NCBI RefSeq assembly: GCF_910596095.1
Contig: NC_056540.1
Coordinates: 11,339,001 to 11,403,000, forward strand
DNA: 64,000 bases
Origin: Thunnus maccoyii
Taxonomy: Eukaryota > Chordata > Actinopteri > Scombriformes > Scombridae
Direction: 5' to 3'
Position numbers and translations under genes: made by a program. Positions within the stretch are counted from its first letter, which is position 1. Every line of letters starts with the position of its first letter. Under the pieces are notes generated by a model. The model saw only the letters and a program-made list of their open reading frames with translations, made no database searches and was not told where the DNA came from. Of this stretch, positions 1 to 23,338 are shown piece by piece.

Positions 1-925
1 CGCTTGACTGCTCGCAGAAGGGCACCATGCAGTTGAGGATGAAGAATGGGAGCCAGCAGCACACAAACACCCCCATGATCACAGACAGTGTCTTCAGCAC
101 CTTGGTCTCCCTCTTGAATGTCATTTTGAAAGAGCTTTCAGACTCTGCGATGCTGGAGCCCCCACCCATGCTGTCATGTCTGTTCTTGGCATTTTCGGCG
201 GCTCGTTCCAGTGCAGAGATCCTCCTGATTTGTCTGTGGGCTATGCGGTAGATCTGGGTGTAGGTGGCCACCATGATGGCCACAGGGATGTAAAAGCTTA
301 TGAGAGAGGTGGAAATGGCATAAGTCCTGTTTAGGCTTGAGTCACAGTTCTCTGAGCTTTGGTAAGAAGTAGCGTTTGATCCCACAGGGTCAGAGGACCC
401 AGTGAGAGGGAGGAGAGAAGCCTTTGTTTGGGCCTTGTGCCAGTTTAGTTGCACCGGGATGAAGGAAATGAGGACAGACAGCGTCCAGGCCACGCTGATC
501 ATCACATAGGCCACTCTGGGTGTCATTTTCCTCTCATAGCGAAAGGGGCTGGAGATGGCCCAGTAGCGGTCCAGGCTTATCACACAAAGGTTCAAAATGG
601 ATGCCGTGGAGCACATAATATCAAAGGCCACCCAGGTGTCACAGAAGGATCCGAATGGCCAGAACCCTGCGATCTCTGTCACCGCCTTCCACGGCATTAC
701 CAAAATGGCAACCAAGAGGTCTGACACCGCCAGCGAGATCACAAAAAAGTTGGTTACTTTGGAGCGCAGATGGCGGAACTTGGTGACAGCAGCGCAAACT
801 AGCGTGTTTCCCAGCAAGGTCGTGAGGATGAGCAGCGAGAGGAAACAACCAGTTAGGACGCGGCTTGATGGAGCCTCATCCAAAAACCCATTGTCGATGA
901 CAGTCGTAAAGTTCATGAGATCCAT
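1..925 (-). CDS. drd1: Dopamine D1-type receptor, 5' part (partial at window edge)
   Basis: A rhodopsin-class GPCR of the D1 family, which couples dopamine binding at the cell surface to Gs and cAMP. The frame is open for 308 codons from the ATG at 925 and runs off the left edge at the end of TM6. A second in-frame ATG lies at 916. Visible in order: an N-terminal NFT glycosylation site, TM1 with GNTLVCAAV, the IC1 stretch [12 protein letters not shown]2 [11 protein letters not shown]3 [11 protein letters not shown] with the amine-binding Asp, then [15 protein letters not shown], a long second extracellular loop, TM5 AISTSLISF, the short IC3 typical of D1 receptors ([10 protein letters not shown]), and TM6 [12 protein letters not shown]. 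There is no intron in the coding part, as in DRD1/DRD5. The TM5 serine at position 5.42 is threonine here. drd1a or drd1b is more likely than drd5 by loop and TM similarity, but the paralogue is not certain. The C-terminal tail is outside the window. Confidence 0.93.
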
Positions 926-1010
926 CCCTGTACATGTGGGGAGTGTTCATTTAAGTCATGCTGAGGGGACGTCCTACATTATATCCACAGGATCAGAATC
1001 TAGGAGGCTC
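926..1010 (-). other. drd1: 5' UTR part of the drd1 coding exon
   Basis: On the minus strand a strong splice acceptor (pyrimidine run then GCATTTCAG) ends at 1011, so the coding exon probably begins at 1010 and carries 85 nt of 5' UTR. A 5' UTR intron is known for D1 receptor genes. This is read from sequence only. Confidence 0.5.
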
Positions 1011-5119: not shown

Positions 5120-5454
5120 AGTAAGTATGAAAGTTGTTGATTTATTTGAAGACAGCAGCACAATATTTCTCAGCCAAAATGTTTTTCACAATCTGATTAT
5201 TACTTTGCGCCATCTACTCAGTTTAATACATCTATATGAAATGTCTGTGAAAATGAATGGTCATATAAGAACAAATAAATAAATAAATAGCTAATTAAAT
5301 AACAGTAATAAATAGATAAATAATATTTATGTGAATATATGTGCAATACATTCACTGTTCACATTTAATCCTGACGGAAAGTAATTTTCTAATCAATATT
5401 GGTAGAAGCTGCCCTGCATAAAACTGAAAACAAGTTTTGTTTGTTGAAGTTTCT
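5120..5454 (-). other. 3' UTR of the IL-4/13-like gene
   Basis: Follows the stop at 5455. An AATAAA on the minus strand lies at 5141-5146, which would place the poly(A) site near 5120-5130. The UTR contains the AU-rich element listed separately. Confidence 0.5.
5274..5330 (-). promoter_or_regulatory. AU-rich element in cytokine 3' UTR
   Basis: Read on the minus strand this stretch carries overlapping ATTTA pentamers (ATTTATTTATTTATTTG) plus further ATTTA copies nearby. Such elements destabilise cytokine mRNAs by recruiting TTP/AUF1-type proteins. The location inside a cytokine 3' UTR fits that role; function is inferred. Confidence 0.6.
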
Positions 5455-6924
5455 TCATCTTCTTTTTGAGTTTAGTATCCTGAGGAAATCCTTGTACAAC
5501 TCGAAAGGCTTCGAAATGTTCTTGAGCTTTTCCATTTTGCATCTGGCGTCTGTCATCTGAAAGCAAAACAGAGTGAGTTTAGTTTTTCTGTCTGGATACC
5601 CGCTACTGATGCAGCAGTCATGAAGTTAACAGCGAGAACTCAGTGTCTGTGAAGACATCACACTTTCATGTTTTTGTTAGCTAACCTGTACAGAAGGAGA
5701 TGTGAGACTCTCAAGGTTGTCGCGAAGTTCACCTAGGACTTTGCTGTCTCTATGTATCCTCACATGTTGTAGAAGGTGCTCCAGCCCCTTTTTAAAGACA
5801 TTTACACAGGAAGACTGCAATGGAAAGAGGACAGGGTCTGGTCAGGCTACCATGGCAAACAAAATGCATTTGCTGTCAAGAATTGAGCTCAATCGAACTG
5901 TTCAGAATGTAGATGGTGAAAAGATGCAATACTTACCAAATGTCGTTTCATTTGTTTAGATGGCACCTTCACTGTGTTTAGCTATAGGGACAGAAAATGA
6001 ATGTAATTAATATAATGTATTAAGCACAGGAAGACTATTTTAAGTGGCAGATCATGACAATAACAGTCACTGAGAGCAGGCCTCGGAGACATATCAAATT
6101 AATTTGATTAATTCAATTTTTTGTTTTTCCTCAATGTGTCCTCAATCAAAAATGTCTGCATCATAAAAATCAAGTTATTACAACATGCAAAAAAGTTATT
6201 TTTAGTCAAAAAGTAACTGATAATTGGCAACATTAGCTGTCTTCAGTTACAACAGTTCTGTAAACTGTGGCATGAATAGTTACAAAATGTATACCTTTCT
6301 CATCTATGAGAGAGACAGACTGAAAAAAGACAATAAATACTGATCGGGGCTTTCGATTCAGTATTATGGACTGAAAAATGTGGAGATTCTACTTCAATCT
6401 TTCTGTCTGTACCTGCCGAGTCGCTAACACTAGCTAGCCAGCAGTCTGCACATATCAGGCTGATGTCTTGTCAAGAAACCCAAACAGCAGGAGCAGACTG
6501 TGTGTAGAGTTTTCTGCTCTATCTGTGCTGAAACTGATTATTAAACTGGATGTCTCTGCCCTACCTCGTCAGAACACCTAGTATTGGTGTTCCATAACTG
6601 CATGAGATAACCTGTATTTTTGACACTTGAGCAAAAAAATTAAAACACCTGCAGCACATGCAAAGCAAGTTATGATTATGTTTCCATTTTCCTGCATTTT
6701 GCAGGGGGAAAAATGATTAATATCCTTAATTGACCCCAAAGTTATATGTGATAATACCAGTGTCTCATACTTACAGATTCAATATTGAGTTCTTTGTCTT
6801 TGTAGAGTTTGGTGAGATTCTGCAGTCCGATCAAAAGCTCCCTGTTCCTGTTCATGTCATTACCATTGGTAGCACTGTAGGACAAATGCAACAGAGCAAC
6901 GAGGACAAACACACACTTCATCAT
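5455..6924 (-). CDS. il4/13: IL-4/IL-13-like short-chain four-helix cytokine
   Basis: Secreted type I cytokine with four coding exons, all joined in phase 0: 6775-6924, 5937-5981, 5686-5814 and 5455-5556, with GT-AG borders. They encode 141 residues. Residues 1-17 are a signal peptide (KCVFVLVALLHLSYS). Helix A carries an NLT glycosylation site (36-38), and a second site NIS is at 121-123. The mature chain has only two cysteines, C68 (opening exon 3, SSCVNVFKKGLEHL) and C114 (opening exon 4, ARCKMEKL). These match the IL-4 disulfide that links the start of helix B/C to the CD loop, and the 4-exon phase-0 layout is that of the IL-2/4/13/15/21 group. A TATA box and an AU-rich 3' UTR flank it. 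IL-4/13 is the best fit; IL-2 or IL-21 relatives are alternatives. Which teleost paralogue (A or B) cannot be decided here. Confidence 0.65.
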
Positions 6925-7018: not shown

Positions 7019-7027
7019 TTTTATATA
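7019..7027 (-). promoter_or_regulatory. TATA box of the IL-4/13-like gene
   Basis: TATATAAAA on the minus strand about 95 bp upstream of the start codon at 6924, a normal distance for a short 5' UTR. It sits in the TATA-driven promoter style usual for inducible cytokine genes. Confidence 0.6.
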
Positions 7028-7389
7028 CTCAAGTCAGCAGGCAAGGGAAGTGATGATGTCATTATACACCTACGTGGAAATCACTCAAAATTTTAAATGC
7101 ACAAGTTAGCAAAAAAAAAAAAAGTAATTTAAAATTTTTAAAAAAGAATGCTTTATGGTAAGGGATTTAGAAACTGATAGAAGAAGAAAGGTTGTCCTTG
7201 CTCCACCTCTGATGAGTGAAAGCAAACAATCTTGTTTCACTACATGCTAACAGTCTTGTTGAGACAATAGTGACCTATTTTGAAACTACTGTTATTACCT
7301 GAAGAGTACTTTAAATCCTTTCAAAGAAAACTAAGACAGAGCTACCAAACTGGAACTGTGAGTATGAATGCCAAATAGAAAGGGCCTCC

Positions 7390-8166
7390 TATCACAAAAT
7401 ATCAAAACTGTCCCAAGCCCTTCTGCAGCCATGTCATACCACAGAACCTGTCTTAAGGAGATAAAGGCCTGGATGAGCACAAATTTCCTCCAGTTAAACA
7501 GCAGCACAACTGAAGTTCTCCGTATTCGCACTCCACACTGGATTCAGTCATCCCCCATACCTCATCTCACCTTTGACGGCCAGGACATCCCCCTTTGCTC
7601 CTCAGTCACTAATGTGGGTGTTAGGTTTGACCCTCACCTGACTTTTAATGACAATATAAGACATCTATGCAAAACCTCTGTCTACGATCTCAAAAACATC
7701 CCTAAACTCAGCCCCTCTCTCACCCTGTCAGATGCAGAGAAACTTCTCCATGCCTTTATTTCCTCAAGACTGGACTACTGCAGTGCACTTTTCACAGGGA
7801 TCCCTGGCAGGAGAATCCCGAAGCTCCAGTACATTCAGAACAGCGCTGCCAAAATCCTGACTCCTTCAAGAATGAATACAAAGTCCTGCTACTAACATAC
7901 AAATCCATGAGTGGACATGTGCCTCCCTACCTACAGGAATGGATCATATTACAAACCTCCACCCACACCCTCAGGTCTGCCAGCAGCTTGGTCCTCTGGG
8001 CCCCCAGTACTAAGCTCCGCACCATGGGGACTTGAGCCCTCTGCTCTGTTGCACTATGCTTGTGCTTATTACTGTTTTCTTTTTGTTGTGTGTTCTATGT
8101 TATTAATACTGTAGCACTTTGAGTATCACTATGAATGAAAAGTGCGGTACAGCTGAAATGTTTTGT
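7390..8166 (+). mobile_element. L2-like non-LTR retrotransposon, 3' fragment
   Basis: A 5'-truncated LINE. The plus-strand frame 7368-7895 translates to the C-terminal part of a CR1/L2-clade reverse transcriptase: LTFDGQDIPL, NVGVRFDPHLTF, AFISSRLDYCSALFTGIP and LQYIQNSAAKILT are the typical blocks. The frame then breaks (about 7895) but related sequence continues to the 3' end, where GCACTTTGAGTATC...AAAAGTGCGGTA is the standard L2-type tail before the ATT repeat. Not functional. Confidence 0.8.
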
Positions 8167-8169
8167 TAA

Positions 8170-8232
<63 letters not shown>

Positions 8233-8242
8233 TATTATTATT
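8167..8242. repeat. (ATT)n microsatellite at the LINE tail
   Basis: About 25 ATT units with one interruption, directly after the LINE 3' end; L2-type elements often end in such short tandem units. Confidence 0.9.
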
Positions 8243-8249
8243 AAACCCA

Positions 8250-14097: not shown

Positions 14098-16564
14098 TTA
14101 AGGATGCAAAAGTTTTACCCCGTTTTCCTTCAGTGCCTTCAGCGTGATGGTCAGTCCTCCAGCATCACACAGCTGAAACTCCTCCAGTGCCTCATCGTGT
14201 GGCTGCTGAAGACCAATGGTGTGAACTAAGCCTGCTACATCCTCATAATCTTCCTTCTTCCTCAAAGTCATCTGGATCATTTCTGCATAAATACATCACA
14301 AAACAACTTCTCTATATATAAACCACAACGGAATGGCTTCACATATTTAACACCTGAATATTTTGAATGAATATTTTCCCATTGATGATAGTGGATTTTT
14401 TTTCATCTACTCTATAATACTCTAATCTGCTCTATAATATGTCAAAAAGTAGTGCCTGTCAGTTTCCCAGAACCTAAATTGACTTCTTCAAATTGCTGAT
14501 TTAGTACAAAAGTTGCTTTTGGTTAATTTCCTTGACAAACTGTTTCAGCACTAGTCTCCACTAATGTTTTTATGGCATAAATGCTTCACATTGTCATAGT
14601 TATGTTTTCCTTTGGGTTTTTTTTTGTTTTTTGTTTTTTTTTTACAATTTCCCGACTATGTCTAGAATATAAAGCTATTCATGTGTATCAGTTTTGGTGC
14701 TTGTAGGAAAATTTCAATCTAAAATTGTGAGCACAATATTAAACAACTCTCTTACGATTTGGTTAAAAAGCAAAAACTCCCAACTTAGGACATTTTGAGG
14801 TATCTAATATTTAAATTCTGCAAGATCACAGTATCACAGCTAGTTTCATATTATCAGCTTTGACATGAAATTCTCTTTAAACACTCACACTGTATAAGCA
14901 GCAGTAGTGGAAAACACATTACTCAAGTGCAGTTTTGAGGAACTTAGTTCATTTAGTAGAAGTAGTTTCATTTCATGCTACTTATATAGTTCAAGGTACA
15001 TTTCACAGACATACTGTACTTTGTCTTACATTACATGTATTTGACAGCTATAGTTCCTAGTTACGTTTTCAGATTAAGACTTTACATTAAAAAAAAAACC
15101 ATTGGATTTGACACATTTCCCCTTTAAACTTCACAGATAGTTTCATTTAAATATGTATTTGAGACTCAGAGAAATAAAATGATCCAATATTTCACAAAAA
15201 AAGCAAAAAATGGGGGGGATTCCTGAAAATAAATAGCGTGTAGCAGAATTCATCAGCAATAAGAATCTAATAATGTAATAAAATAACATTTGGTTCATTT
15301 TTTTGCAGACTGAGTACTTTAAGTAGATGTTGCTGATTTTTACTTGTGTAGAATTTTGAATTTTTTTACACTGTGGCATTAGTACTTTTACTTGAGTAAA
15401 GGATCTGAGCATTTCTTCAACCACTAATATGAAGATGTTTGACTTTACATTTCCACTCCCACATTACCCAAAGGCTCAGCAGAACTGCTCCTCATCAGTG
15501 AACCTGAACGTTCACTGTCTTCCTCCAGAAAGGACAAACTTTCATCTTCATCAAAGTCCTCAGGGTAGTGGCAGTCAATGTGAGCATCTTCCTCCTCCTC
15601 ATCACTGGAACTGGCCTCCATATTGTGCTTTTTCTCTTCCCATGAGTGGGACTGACTGAGAACATGTGACGTGGGACAGATCTCTTCTTCAGGTTCAGTC
15701 ACAGGAACACAGTCAGTCTGAGTCTCTCTGTGTTTGATATACTCCAGCTGATGTTGCACGCAGGCACTGCTGAGTATGCAGGCAGCACTTGGCCTGTTCT
15801 CAGGTTTGAGGCAGAGCATTCTCTGGATCAAAGAGGAGATGTTTTCCGAGTAAACGCTAAGGACAGGATCATACTCTCCTTTGGGGATCTTGTAGAACAG
15901 ACTGAGGAGGTTCATGGCTGCAAACGGAGGCCTGAGAGCACAGATCTCATACAGCAGACAGCCCAGATCCCAGATGTCAGACTTGGAGCTGTATGGGACA
16001 TCCTGGCAAAGCTCAGGGCTGAGGTAGATGGGGGTGCCAACACATGTGGAAGCCATGTCAGCTGTGTTTGTCATTCCTTTGGATATCCCAAAATCCCCTA
16101 ACTTCACCACACCTCTCTTCATTAGCAGTACATTTGAGGTTTTGATGTCCCTGTGAAGTATTTTAGCCGTGTGTATGTAATAAACAGCCATGGTGACCTG
16201 TATAAACCACCCCATTACAGTACTCTCTGAGAAAAACTCGTTTCCTCTGTTTAACCTTGTCATCTAATGTCCCACCATCACAGTAGCTCATCACAATGTA
16301 AATGAATCCGTCGTCAGAGTTCACAAAAACATCGCTTCACTTCACTATGTGAGGGTGCTTCAGCCTCCTTATGATTTCAGCCTCCTGGAGGATAGCTCTT
16401 TGTGTTGTTGCTGTCCTTGCGTCCTTTACTTTTATCCTCTTGACTGCGTGCAAGCTTCTGCGCTCATCGTGCCTCATCAGGAACACGTCCGCGGCTCCTC
16501 TCCGGCCCAAACACAACACCTGGTATTTCACAATAACACAATAAAAGGTCCGGAGAATGAGCAA
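14098..16564 (-). pseudogene. NEK-family serine/threonine kinase gene, disrupted
   Basis: The main exon (15468-16564) encodes an almost complete kinase domain: nucleotide loop LGRRGAADVFL, Lys in AVKRIKV, helix-C Glu in LQEAEI, then IYIVMSYCDGGTL, catalytic loop [31 protein letters not shown] and [13 protein letters not shown]. The GTPxYLSPE and DFGIxK wording is that of NIMA-related (NEK) kinases. After the kinase comes an acidic, serine-rich tail ([11 protein letters not shown]). A donor at 15466-15467 joins in frame to exon 14098-14282, ending EEFQLCDAGGLTITLKALKE...LLHP. Two lesions: an in-frame TGA at 16337-16339 between HIVK and SDVFVNS, and a one-base frame change near 16250, between DDKVKQ and RGNEFF. 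No in-frame ATG opens the kinase frame; two upstream stops lie between it and an ATG near 16635. The catalytic domain has no introns, unlike other vertebrate NEK genes. It is either a decaying retrocopy that gained an intron, or a real gene with assembly errors. Confidence 0.65.
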
Positions 16565-16679
16565 AAGACGACGGTATCGAGGAGGTTAACGACCACTTCA
16601 ATATAAGCCAGCTGTCAACACACTGTCCGTCATTTTGGCCTCCGTATGTGTACAGTGTTGTTGCCATGGTAACCATTGA

Positions 16680-17570: not shown

Positions 17571-19410
17571 AATGATATGAGCAAGTCAGTCCAGATATTG
17601 GAAAATCAATTTTTGCAGACGATGTGGCAATTTGGATAAGAGGAAGAAATGTAAAGTATGTTGTTAAAAAAGTTCAGGAAGCTATCAATGAAGTTGAAAA
17701 CTGGTCTCAAATGTGGGGATTTAAATTATCTGTAGAAAAATCTCAAACTGTTTTTTTTTTTTTACGAGAAAGAGAGTCAATGAAGATGTTTACCTGAATC
17801 TTTATAATCAAAGATTAGGAAAAAAGAAAGTGTTCAAGTTTTTAGGTTTGTGGTTTGATGCATTGCTCACATGGAAGACTCATATAGACAAAATTGAAAA
17901 TAAAAGTAAGAAAGTCTTAAATATTATGTGATGCTTGACAGGCACTGTTTGGGGAGCTGCTAGCTATGAAAAATATCTATATAGAATTGATTAGATCAGT
18001 TCTAGACTATGGGTGCATTTTATTTGGATCAGCAGCTCAAACCCCATTAAAGAAAATTAGACCGAATTCAGGCTAAAGCACTGCGGTTGTGTTGTGGGGC
18101 AGTCAAATCAACACCGTTGTCAGCACTCCAGGTGGAAGATGGGGACATGCCGTTAAGAAGGAAACAATTAATGGCCAATTATTGGGCAAATCTACAAAGT
18201 CACAAAGATTTACACCCCACTAAAAAGGTTGTGGATAGTTTTGGGGAAAGTAGCAAAATCAAAAAGGAGAGTTTTAGCACAATCATATCAGCTATAACTA
18301 AGGAGTTGGATGTCAATGATTAGGCTATTAGTCAAACTGTTTTAATGCCAGCTGTTCCTCCATGGCTACTGCCTCAACTATCTATTGATTTCTCAATTTT
18401 GGATCATGTTCATTCAAGTATAAAAGCATTTAATCTGCAGGCTTATGTGAACACTGTATTACATGAGCGATATGGGCAATATGTACAGATATTTACAGAT
18501 GAGTCAAAAAAATCCAGAGAATGAGAAAACAAGTAGTGCATTTTATGTCCCTGAGTTAGAAGTGAAATTGAACAAGAGAACTACAGACCACATATCTGCT
18601 TATACAGTTGAAATGATGGCAATCTTGTTAACCATGCGATAGATAGAGGAAGTCAAACCACTGCGTACACCGCTTTGCTCAGACTCAAGTGCAGCCCTGG
18701 TTTATCTCAAGCATACCTCTTCAAGATGCAGACAGTATATCCTTTGTGACATTATACAATCTTTATATAGAATTTGTAAATTATGAAGTGATGTACAGTT
18801 TGTATGGATATCAGCACATGTGGGCATTCAGGGAAATGAGGTTGTGGGCCACCTTGCCAAGAAAGGATTAGATAGAAATCAAGTAGAAGTTGCAATAGCA
18901 GTAAGAAAAATAGAGGCAAAAGCTTTTATATGGAGCAGGATAAAGACACAGTGGCAAAAGCTTTGGGACAGGGATACTAAAGGAAGGCATTTATATCAGA
19001 TTCAACAAGAGGTTGCAGGGGAAAAACAGGAGACACGAGTGCCTGATCATCAGAATAAGACTGGGACACACAAAACTAAATCCATCTCTGCACCCCATTG
19101 GGAAGCATCTAACTGGAACTTGTGAAAGCTGTAATCATATGGAAAGTGTGAATCAAGTCTTGTTTCATTGTCTCAAATATACAAGACAAAGACAGCTGTT
19201 AAAAATAAACTGGAACATAAAGGGGTTGAACACACGGACTTGGAAACACTCTTTCCAAATGATTCTGGAAACTATATTTTAAATCATGTCTTCACTTATC
19301 TTCAAAGCACTGGTTTAATAATAGGATTTAAGAACTATGTAATTCAACCGTTGGTGGCGATAGTGCTCTGAATGGTGGTAATACGCCATTAAACATGAAG
19401 AAGAAGAAGA
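17570..19410 (+). mobile_element. I/Nimb-like LINE with RNase H, 3' half, decayed
   Basis: A 5'-truncated retrotransposon. It opens inside the reverse transcriptase with SIFADDVAIW (the FADD catalytic box), then ENWSQMWGFKLSVEKSQ and FKFLGLWFDALLTWKTHI. After several stops and shifts an RNase H domain follows with its acidic residues still visible: IFTDESKK, YTVEMMAILL, LCSDSSAAL and VWISAHVGIQGNEVVGHLA. A zinc-knuckle-like C-terminal block is near 19120-19200 (CESCNHMES, LFHCLKY). It ends with GGTGGTAATACGCC and a GAA repeat tail at 19398-19417. RNase H after the RT marks the I/Nimb group. Not autonomous. Confidence 0.8.
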
Positions 19411-19526: not shown

Positions 19527-22500
19527 ATGCCACCAAAGGGAAAAGGTGGCAAGGGTGGTAAAGGTCAGTGGTCCATTAGTTACGTCCTGTCAGTTGTGTG
19601 TTGTGTACTTTTATCTTAAAGCCACATTTACTAGCTAGTAGCATACAACTGCCAGAGCACTTCACATGCTTTATGATGGCTTGCTCGCCAGGTTTAAGCT
19701 CATCGTGTTGTTTGTTACAATGTTACTGCTGGTATTTGTTGTCCTCACGGCTGTTGTCCTGGTGATGAACGTCTTTGCTGTGTGTAGGAGCCGCTTCAGG
19801 AAGTGGAGACGCTGACAAGAAAGAAAAGGCACCGAAGGGAGGCACTGCTGTTAAGGTAACATTACACGCAACAAAACCACATTTTGTATACACACACATT
19901 TTTACTTACTTAGTCATTACTGGGGACTTTTTGCCAAACGACTACTGCTCTCCTCCTTGTACCACAAAGGGAGCTTGAAGGAAAACGGAAAGAGCTGAGT
20001 GTGTCGGTGTGGGGAGCCACATTTAGACTTAATATAATAATAGATATAATTATTCTCAATGAGAGGTGAACCTTTTAAAAGGAGCCTTGATTTCAACTTG
20101 ATTTGACTACAACATGCAATGTACAACCCGTTGTGACCTTTGAAATGATTAAATCTTAGAGATTTTTTTTTTTTTTTTAACAAATATTGCCCTTTTCTCC
20201 TTGAATCATACAACCCATGCAATGTTTTTGTTGAATTCGTAGAGTGTAGGCCCTGCATGTTAGGGAGTATTTCAAGCAGTTTGTCTTTTCTCCATTAGTG
20301 GAAAAATTTCCATCACTGCTGCACCAACATCTGCTTTGGGTCACAAAAGTAGGGATGCATGATATTGGATTTTTTGCCAATATTTCCAACTCATTGTGGC
20401 CGATACCAATATATGCACATATTTTTTTCTAGCTGGCTGAGGAGACTATTATGCATGCAAGCATAGATTGTACTGAGTATGATCAAGAAAGACAATATAT
20501 GAAGGACAAATTTAGGAAGACTGGATTCAGGAGCTCAGCATTAAAACTTTAATGAACCTTCCAAGTGGGTGGAGCAGTAGAGTTTTCTTTGAGTTTATTA
20601 GACAGACAGGATTAATGTGTAGGAAGGTGGCGGTAATGCATCTAATACGCTGGTTGCCAACCGCTGTTATGAACCAAAAAGAAGAAGATGAAGTTTTTTA
20701 TTTTTCACAGTGTGGTACATCCTGTCAGCCGAGGGATTTCCTATCTGTGCAGCTGAACACCGCAACACCTTGATGGACTGTATCACCCCGACGGTCCCGG
20801 TGCTTCCTCCGCAGGCTCCACGTCACTCAGCTGCCCGTCAGACCCGCTGCTTCTTCCCACTTGAACCTGAATAACAAACTGGGGATCAGTGGTCCAGTTT
20901 GATCCACATGGAGAGCCGGGGATAACGTTAGCTGGGAGGCTAGAGAAGGCTAGCTGGCTGTGCTTCTCCACCAATCCCCAGTTTGTTATTCGGGTTAAAG
21001 TGGGAAGAAGCAGCGGGACTGACAGGCAGCTTGAGTGAATTGGAGCCTGAGGAGGAAGCACCGGGACCGTCAGGGTGATACAGTCCATCAAGGGAAGCAC
21101 AGTTAGGCGGCGGAGGAGAAGGCGACATATCGGCCTTTCATTATTGGCAGAATACGCTGATACCGATGACGTGCCAATAATATCGTGCATCCCTACATAA
21201 AAGTGCTGGCAGTGCTGGACAGCATGAATGAGTTAGGGGTTTTTGATCCACTATTGGGATGCTTTATCAGTGCTTGCTAAGCATAATGACTACAGTGAAT
21301 TTAAGTAGTTATAAACATAGCACAAAAAGTAAGGAAAGGTGTTTGGTAGATTATTTCTTTGTTGTAACAATGCTTCTTGGCAATAAATCTTATTCCGTTG
21401 GAAACCTGTTTATTTCCCTTTTAAATGGTGCCACATTTGTAAGGAACATGCATTTGTGGGATGAGCAGCAGAGCTGAGTATGCGGCTTGCGCCCCCATGA
21501 AAAATATGTCAAATCTTCTCTGCCAATGCCAAATGACTTATTCTGCCATTGACTCTTGTTTGGTGTTTGGTGGATTGGATGATTGAAGTATGAAGCGTGT
21601 GGAAGAACCATACACAGACACAACAGCCTGGCACCTTCTCCTCATGCTGGTCACCAGGTGGCGGTAATGCATCTAATACGCACATCCCACTGCTGTGGGA
21701 TGGCATCCCATTCTTCAACCAGCGGGGTTTATCAGAGACTACCTCCAGAATTTGGGAGTGGAGAGGATGGAATGGCCTGCCAGCAGTCCTGACCTCAACC
21801 CCATTGAACACTTGTGGGATCAGCTTGGGTGTGCTGTTCGTGCCATACTGACCAACACAACCACGTTAGCTGACTTGTGACAAATGCTGGTTGAAGAAAT
21901 TGTTAAATTGCCAATATGTCTTGTTTCTTCATACCTCAATTATCCAATCCACCAAACACCAAACAAGAGTCAATGGCAGACTAAGCTGTTAGGCATTGGC
22001 AGAGAAGATTTGGCATATTTTTTATGGGTGCAACCCACATACTCAGCTCTGCTGCTCATCCCACAAATGCATGTTCCTTACAAATGTGGCACCATTTAAA
22101 AGGGAAATAAACAGGCTTTCCAACGGTATAAGATTTATTGCCAAGAAACATTGTTACAACAAAGAAATAATCTACCAAACACAAATTTCCTTACTTTTTG
22201 TGCTATGTTTAGTTTGCTGCCCAACCATTGTTTATTCCTGGTAGTATTAACTGTGCTTTTGTGATCTGTGTGGCCCCAGGTTCGACATATCCTCTGTGAG
22301 AAACATGGAAAATGCATGGAGGCAATGGAGAAACTGAAGGCTGGAGTCCGTTTCAGCGAAGTAGCCTCACAATACAGTGAAGACAAAGCTAGACAAGGAG
22401 TAAGAACATTCATTCTAGTCATTTTCAACCTCATTACTGATTCAAATGATCCCACAGTATTAACTGTACGCTCTAGGAGCACTGCAACTATTACTTTCAT

Positions 22501-23338
22501 TGCTATTGTGCTTATTATTTTCTTGATTAATCATCTGTAAAATATCAGAAAATGGCTAAATGGCCAAACGCTAGATAATATCTTCAAATTGCTTGTTTTT
22601 TCAGTCCACATCCCAAAGATATTCACTTAACTATCACATAACAAGGAAAGCAGTGGGCTCTTCAAGATGGAATACATCTGAACAGGTGGTGATAAATATG
22701 GGACAAATATGAGTAATGATGAATACACATATGATCTACGGGCCTAAACCTCATAATGACTCTTCATGGGTGATGAAATCCAGACTGATGACTAATAAGT
22801 CTTTCTACCTGATAATTTCTTTACAGCTCTTTTACTAAACTTGGCTATTTTTCACCCACTAGAACACCTACACTGATATATTCTCAGCTACTGGGAAACT
22901 TCTTTGGCCAATGTGTTGTTACTCAGGGGCACCACCTAATTTTTGAGTTGTTGATATTTTTCATGTGCAACAAAGCTTCTATCTCATTTCCTTATCTGTG
23001 GCCTACCGCTTGGTAACTGAAGCTGTAAAAGGCGGTAGTTTCAAATTCCTGCATTGCTCACAGTTGTGAAAATATTTTTTTATGTTCAGTGCAGTGAACA
23101 CATCTTAGCTTTTTGCCTTGTTTCTGACTCATATTAGGTGCATACCATGTTTTGTTCATGACTGTTTTGTTCATGACAGGGTGATCTGGGGTGGATGACC
23201 CGAGGGTCGATGGTTGGACCTTTTCAAGATGCAGCATTTGCCTTGCCTGTCAGTTCCATGGATAAACCTGTCTACACAGACCCTCCCGTCAAGACCAAAT
23301 TTGGGTACCATATCATTATGGTGGAGGGGAAAAAGTGA
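19527..23338 (+). CDS. pin4: Parvulin-type peptidyl-prolyl isomerase Pin4 (Par14)
   Basis: Small prolyl cis-trans isomerase acting in ribosome biogenesis and chromatin. Exons: 19527-19563, 19788-19855, 22280-22399 and 23180-23338 (stop TGA at 23336), all with GT-AG borders, giving 127 residues against about 131 in human. Residues 1-35 are the basic Gly/Lys-rich tail of Par14 ([11 protein letters not shown], then [13 protein letters not shown]) that binds DNA. From V36 on is the parvulin domain: [51 protein letters not shown], and the closing [12 protein letters not shown] with its core histidine. The start has an adequate context (AAAATGC) and the N-terminus matches the family. Intron 2 has grown by insertion of a hAT-type and a Tc1-type element. 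A possible poly(A) signal ATTAAA lies at 23439. Confidence 0.95.
20350..21195. mobile_element. Non-autonomous hAT element with internal inverted repeat
   Basis: Ends are TAGGGATGCATGATATT at the left and the complement of TAGGGATGCACGATATT at the right. They are flanked by an 8-bp target duplication with one mismatch (cacaaaag at 20342-20349, cataaaag at 21196-21203). Eight-base duplications are diagnostic of hAT transposases. There is no transposase frame. Inside is a long palindrome: about 20768-20918 is repeated in inverted orientation at about 20960-21093. A LINE-tail fragment is nested near 20630-20700. Confidence 0.8.
20620..20700 (+). repeat. I/Nimb-like LINE tail fragment nested in the hAT element
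   Basis: GGTGGCGGTAATGCATCTAA then TACGCTGGTTGCCAACCGC and AAGAAGAAGA. This is the same kind of 3' end as the LINE ending at 19410. Confidence 0.55.
21314..22209. mobile_element. Tc1-like transposon with about 280-bp terminal inverted repeats
   Basis: Left arm 21314-21595 and right arm 21927-22209 are inverted copies of each other (AACATAGCACAAAAAGTAAG at both ends), nearly identical along their length and bounded by TA at both sides. The core (21690-21880) encodes the C-terminus of a Tc1/mariner transposase, [17 protein letters not shown], holding the third acidic residue of the DDE triad. The rest of the transposase is missing, so this is an internally deleted copy. Confidence 0.85.
22490..22690. 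repeat. Dispersed ATTAATC-type teleost repeat, partial copy
   Basis: Shares TTGATTAATCATCTGTAAAA, the TATCAGAAAATGGC block and the CCACATCCCAAAGATATTCA block with a repeat widespread in teleosts. Other partial copies are at 23940-24240, 41985-42130 and 55900-56240. Boundaries are rough. Confidence 0.5.

Follow-up and report, generated by a model that had tools for sequence, protein, structure and literature searches.

Beside drd1 in the window (the whole stretch of 64,000 nucleotides of Thunnus maccoyii DNA analysed here, C8:11339001-11403000) lies a four-exon gene predicted to encode a secreted short-chain type I helical cytokine, and its sequence and location lead us to favour, with moderate confidence, a placement within the IL-3/IL-5/GM-CSF family (the beta-common cytokines, 'IL-5fam'), in which it would be divergent. 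The gene stands apart from the IL-4/13 models of the same genome.

Teleosts possess candidate common beta receptor chains. If the placement is true, the gene would supply the partner so far missing for the common beta chain of teleosts, and would explain an IL-5/GM-CSF-like myeloid axis in percomorph fish. The evidence tilts slightly towards percomorphs having kept a ligand of the common beta receptor, in the form of a drd1-linked IL-5-family cytokine located in the gap between DRD1 and a protein kinase gene. According to the 2015 account (PMC4690019), no candidate IL-3/IL-5/GM-CSF gene was found in non-cyprinid teleosts, and a 2020 table of receptors predating their ligand includes CSF2RB (PMC7244123). 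No later report of such a gene was among the matches listed in the open-licence literature; the gene may already be known or annotated in subscription journals, preprints or sequence databases, which lay outside the scope of that search. A defined gene next to drd1 gives an address for checking other teleost genomes, and whether fish have an IL-5/GM-CSF axis becomes directly testable.

Structure of the predicted gene

The coding exons and the flanking signals of the gene, all on the minus strand, are as follows.

6775..6924, minus strand: exon 1 (150 coding nt, 50 amino acids) with a signal-like stretch, helix A (RELLIGL) and sequon N36
5937..5981, minus strand: exon 2 (45 coding nt, 15 amino acids), A-B loop, without cysteine
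5686..5814, minus strand: exon 3 (129 nt, 43 amino acids) with Cys68 followed by the helix-B motif VFKKGLEHL; putative helices B and C
5455..5556, minus strand: exon 4 (99 coding nt plus stop, 33 amino acids) with Cys114, sequon N121 and putative helix D (YKDFLRIL)
7020..7027, minus strand: TATA box, 101-103 nt 5′ of the ATG (pattern match only)
5276..5321, minus strand: AU-rich element in the 3′UTR with six ATTTA and three nonamers (motif search)
5141..5146, minus strand: AATAAA poly(A) signal (motif search)

The exons are free of stops and frameshifts and are separated by GT-AG introns; joined in phase 0 throughout, they give a protein of 141 amino acids, just as an earlier note on this DNA had described. 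Of its further statements on the protein, the two N-glycosylation sites also hold, the sequons being N36-L-T and N121-I-S, and the signal peptide corresponds to a hydrophobic signal-like stretch at the N-terminus, as assessed by eye. The cysteines occupy positions 4 (within the signal stretch), 68 and 114, leaving one mature pair. Calculation of the hydrophobic moment supports helix B (p 0.001) and weakly helix D (0.05); helices A (0.44) and C (0.20) are unsupported by this measure.

The six ATTTA pentamers fall within 338 nt counted from the stop codon, a number reached by 0.7% of intervals of the same size on both strands of the 64 kb, and the AU-rich 3′UTR presents the layout of an inducible cytokine. 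We regard it as almost certain that the predicted gene is a real cytokine gene.

Sequence comparison with the beta-common cytokines

In the exon-anchored test each exon was aligned with the counterpart exon of a reference and the summed score was compared with that of shuffles. Human and mouse IL-5, human and mouse GM-CSF and spotted gar IL-5famA served as the beta-common references, and human IL-4, human IL-13 and the three IL-4/13 models of this genome as the IL-4/13 references; the mammalian sequences and their exon borders were assumed, the gar exon borders were guesses, and IL-3 was omitted because of its five exons. All five beta-common references reached p<0.05 with the window gene (z 1.9-3.2, p 0.002-0.039), the best being gar IL-5famA (z 3.2), and none of the five IL-4/13 references did so (z 0.3-1.5, p 0.084-0.367). 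The sequence is by this measure nearer to the beta-common cytokines than to IL-4/13, though p<0.05 was also reached by 17 of 50 cross-family control pairs, as against 29 of 34 own-family pairs (the counts leave out the human-mouse IL-5 and GM-CSF orthologue pairs and the pair of IL-4/13B models, B1/B2), so that the test is directionally right but noisy. Mean z was higher with the own family for 10 of 10 reference proteins, and the contrast between the beta-common and IL-4/13 means kept its sign in all nine combinations of matrix and gap settings; a first run, without the IL-4/13A model, was concordant with the later one. High scores among the cross-family controls were obtained for gar versus human IL-13 (z 3.7) and human GM-CSF versus the IL-4/13B1 model (z 2.9), and the control of human IL-5 against gar IL-5famA failed (z 0.3).

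BLASTP of the window protein gave E 0.005 with gar IL-5famA (a single comparison) and E 0.21 with the IL-4/13B2 model. The whole-sequence test is cruder, its free-end global alignments being largely meaningless and superseded by the exon-anchored ones; it gave p<0.05 for two of six beta-common sequences (gar and mouse IL-5), with human IL-5, human and mouse GM-CSF and IL-3 above p 0.05. The window protein had no cytokine match among Pfam and PDB sequences, and a two-sequence profile combining it with gar IL-5famA matched nothing in PDB; the Pfam result is uninformative, since gar IL-5famA has no Pfam match either.

Spotted gar IL-5famA (PMC4690019), the best-scoring relative in the local whole-sequence and exon-anchored tests, has 143 amino acids against the 141 of the window protein and is about 22% identical to it, both genes having a Th2-locus setting. 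The likeness is most visible at helix B, where Cys followed by IFLKGIKHL in gar corresponds to Cys followed by VFKKGLEHL here, and in the early exon-4 Cys. The gar protein differs in having two extra mature cysteines, and its gene lies in a RAD50-containing locus, whereas the window gene lies beside DRD1 without RAD50.

Following the Cys of exon 3, the helix-B motif [FY]x(1,2)G[ILV], defined post hoc after inspection of the sequence, occurs in the window gene, in five of five beta-common references and in none of the five IL-4/13 references; it arises in 0.5% of shuffled exon 3 sequences and, as judged by eye, is absent from IL-3. Mammalian IL-5 and GM-CSF, with four phase-0 exons and the helix-B G[IL] motif, resemble the window gene in these respects, and their exon 3 measures 129 nt and 126 nt, respectively; the identity is low and the spacing of the helix-D Phe, compared by eye, is one residue shorter than in the IL-3/IL-5/GM-CSF family. 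The arrangement of helix A, AB loop, helices B-C and helix D on four coding exons with three phase-0 introns, known from IL-5 and GM-CSF, is found here with putative helix limits, but is not specific to the family as it is common to IL-4/13 too. The same applies to the cysteines near the start of exon 3 (Cys68, helix B) and of exon 4 (Cys114). The earlier note had read this single pair as placed as in IL-4; the pair is present and IL-4 has it, yet it is not an IL-4 signature, since IL-5 has just that one pair, like the two mature cysteines of the window protein, and GM-CSF has it as well (a comparison made on assumed sequences). By eye, E29 of helix A aligns with the Glu through which the family engages the common beta chain; IL-4 and IL-13 also carry a helix-A Glu.

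As a member of this family the secreted protein would fold as an up-up-down-down four-helix bundle, and Cys68 and Cys114 would form an intrachain bond like that of GM-CSF or an interchain one like that of IL-5. The protein would bind a private alpha chain together with the teleost common beta chain, the latter presumably contacted by the helix-A glutamate E29, and may signal through JAK2-STAT5, helping myeloid cells, for instance eosinophils or macrophages, to survive and differentiate.

IL-4/13-like models of the same genome and other readings

A helical cytokine of IL-4/13 type was what the earlier note had placed between drd1 and pin4/faf2. An apparent four-exon cytokine gene is indeed there; the IL-4/13-type label finds no support, because both teleost IL-4/13 loci of this genome carry models of their own and the window gene is without their two extra cysteines. 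Teleost IL-4/13A is described as linked to RAD50 and IL-4/13B to KIF3A (PMC5440397, PMC4905449). Neither gene was matched by RAD50 and KIF3A query fragments in the window or in the 100 kb on either side, so that neither linkage is found for the window gene within that distance; the query fragments were assumed sequences. In the 782-Mb genome assembly the RAD50 zinc-hook has a single match, on C13, and a four-exon IL-4/13A-like model lies 1.4 kb downstream of the RAD50 end (L031 6163-5297; C13:14254297-14255163, minus strand). Two tandem IL-4/13B-like models lie directly downstream of KIF3A (L027 6478-7331 and 7974-8830; jointly C8:13778128-13780480), and after they had been found the reading of the window gene as IL-4/13B was discarded. 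The 15 kb upstream of RAD50 (C13:14283170-14298069) gave no DRD1 match and no convincing cytokine-like chain. At the RAD50 locus, two segments (L031 7583-7714 and 9073-9321) match the same C-terminal residues of RAD50 with 82% and 58% identity, perhaps because the last exon is duplicated or because the match runs on into an intron.

The B1 and B2 models are very similar (exon-wise z about 22). The likeness among A, B1 and B2 is partly built in, since the fourth exons of A and B1 were picked by cysteines, nearness and likeness and do not have the top splice score. All three models show a four-Cys layout (end of exon 2, FFC in exon 3, start of exon 4, helix D) and have 4-5 cysteines, as against two mature ones in the window gene; teleost IL-4/13 proteins are described as carrying 4-7 (PMC5440397, PMC11649633, PMC4905449). 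Teleost IL-4/13A and IL-4/13B share with the window gene the fold class, the number and phase of exons and a Cys early in both exon 3 and exon 4. The models of this genome differ from it by xFFC at exon 3, by the exon-2-end and helix-D cysteines, both missing from the window gene, and by their site at RAD50 or KIF3A. We conclude that the window gene is probably not IL-4/13.

That the gene is instead a third type of IL-4/13, copied long ago in tandem or as part of a segment, stripped of two cysteines and acting via IL-4Ralpha/STAT6, is possible but rather unlikely. The four-exon phase-0 structure is the same, and helix A, RELLIGLQNLT, resembles RELIEELVNIT of IL-13. The exon 3 of 129 nt lies within the range of 120-129 bp given for IL-4/13 of the 2R vertebrates gar, shark and amphibian (PMC4905449), and DRD1 is described as flanking IL-4/13B in zebrafish (PMC5440397). 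Against this reading, other models already fill the two teleost IL-4/13 loci of this genome, the two cysteines absent here are present in three of three of these models, and closeness to IL-4 or IL-13 was not seen in the exon-anchored test, with none of the five references at p<0.05.

Relocation of a different short-chain cytokine, of IL-2/15/21, IL-7/9 or TSLP type, to a place beside drd1 appears improbable. Such cytokines have the fold in common, IL-2 has Cys in exons 3 and 4 as the window gene does, and the whole-sequence test returned p 0.024-0.028 for human IL-15; IL-2 and IL-21 were non-significant in that test, and human IL-2 scored z -0.5 in the exon-anchored one, the cytokines compared for this reading being IL-2, IL-15 and IL-21. 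The window represents the Th2-locus neighbourhood, which is distinct from the IL-2/IL-21 locus.

How readily gene models of this kind arise was gauged with a chain finder (signal-like start plus four phase-0 exons) applied to both strands of the window and 100 kb on each side (264 kb). It yielded 647 chains, 40 of them with a Cys placed early in exon 3 and in exon 4, and the top score among these 40 belonged to the predicted cytokine gene, several of the 40 being its variants. When re-run, the finder gave 692 chains in 17 position clusters, the cytokine gene being second by splice score to a cluster at 41605-38497; this cluster overlaps the ring-finger gene, and its top chain lacks such a Cys pair. 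The same finder recovered the three IL-4/13-like models elsewhere in the genome, which serves as a rough positive control. A decayed or spurious model, made of chance exons or a pseudogene without product, would account for the missing Pfam and PDB matches, but is highly improbable given exons without stop or frameshift and the concordance of open frames, good splice sites, Cys pair, TATA box and AU-rich 3′UTR.

Genomic neighbourhood and the presumed ancestral IL-5 site

The following features of the window bear on the identity of the locus.

2..946, minus strand: drd1, C-terminal part, truncated by the left end of the window (Pfam 7tm_1 only)
15448..16585, minus strand: protein kinase gene at the position of TSSK1 in stickleback (Pkinase match, two frames)
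22265..22537, plus strand: open frame with a PIN4-like exon (Rotamase_3, E 0.0037, under the curated cut-off)

The first frame we take to be drd1, a name that agrees with the stickleback gene order, and the frame at 22265..22537 is presumably PIN4. The window also holds FAF2-like exons, a ring-finger gene and a cadherin gene, several of the names resting on single exons; several of the names given to the six genes (drd1, kinase, PIN4, FAF2, ring-finger and cadherin) are our assumption. To the left of the window lie MSX2 (tblastn match) and a frame presumed to be CPEB4-like, and the cytokine gene sits on the side of DRD1 facing away from MSX2. On stickleback chromosome 4 the order is RNF44, FAF2, PIN4, TSSK1, DRD1A, MSX2A, CPEB4A, with B paralogues of these genes on chromosome 7, and the figure legend lists no cytokine or other gene in the TSSK1-DRD1A gap (PMC5719529). 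The gene order around the window is that of stickleback chromosome 4.

In gar, IL-5famA takes the IL-5 position in a locus that also has RAD50 and IL-4/13 (PMC4690019), and an association of DRD1 with RAD50 is described for sea bass and pufferfish (PMC5440397). From the two papers combined we infer that the ancestral IL-5fam gene was on the DRD1 side, the IL-5 site lying between RAD50 and DRD1 in a gar order that is itself pieced together from both. KIF3A is on C8, 2.4 Mb from the DRD1 of the window; in zebrafish KIF3A and DRD1 are the flanking genes of IL-4/13B (PMC5440397), whereas here they are far apart. Together with the stickleback-like gene order, this indicates a fish that is probably a percomorph, or at least no cyprinid. 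A position next to DRD1, on the chromosome that carries KIF3A, would be the expected IL-5fam place if RAD50 was lost and KIF3A with IL-4/13B moved later, and the location would then fit the ancestral IL-5 site. The gene may have survived in a copy of the teleost-duplicated Th2 locus in which KIF3A, IL-4/13B, DRD1, MSX2 and CPEB4 were kept and RAD50 was lost, a later rearrangement having carried KIF3A and IL-4/13B away from DRD1. The neighbourhood, cited in the earlier note as independent support for the IL-4/13 name, speaks rather for the IL-5 side of that ancestral locus, although DRD1 does flank IL-4/13B in zebrafish.

The cyprinid 'IL-5fam?' genes (zebrafish, carp, goldfish, mahseer) are described as KIF3A-linked in zebrafish and carp (PMC4690019), and the window gene is also on the KIF3A chromosome; judged by location, it is possibly their orthologue.

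Upstream of the cytokine gene a (TTA)26 microsatellite occupies positions 8166-8243 of the window. Open frames at 7368-8035, immediately upstream of the gene, and at 17576-19279 resemble, by eye, fragments of decayed non-LTR retrotransposons.
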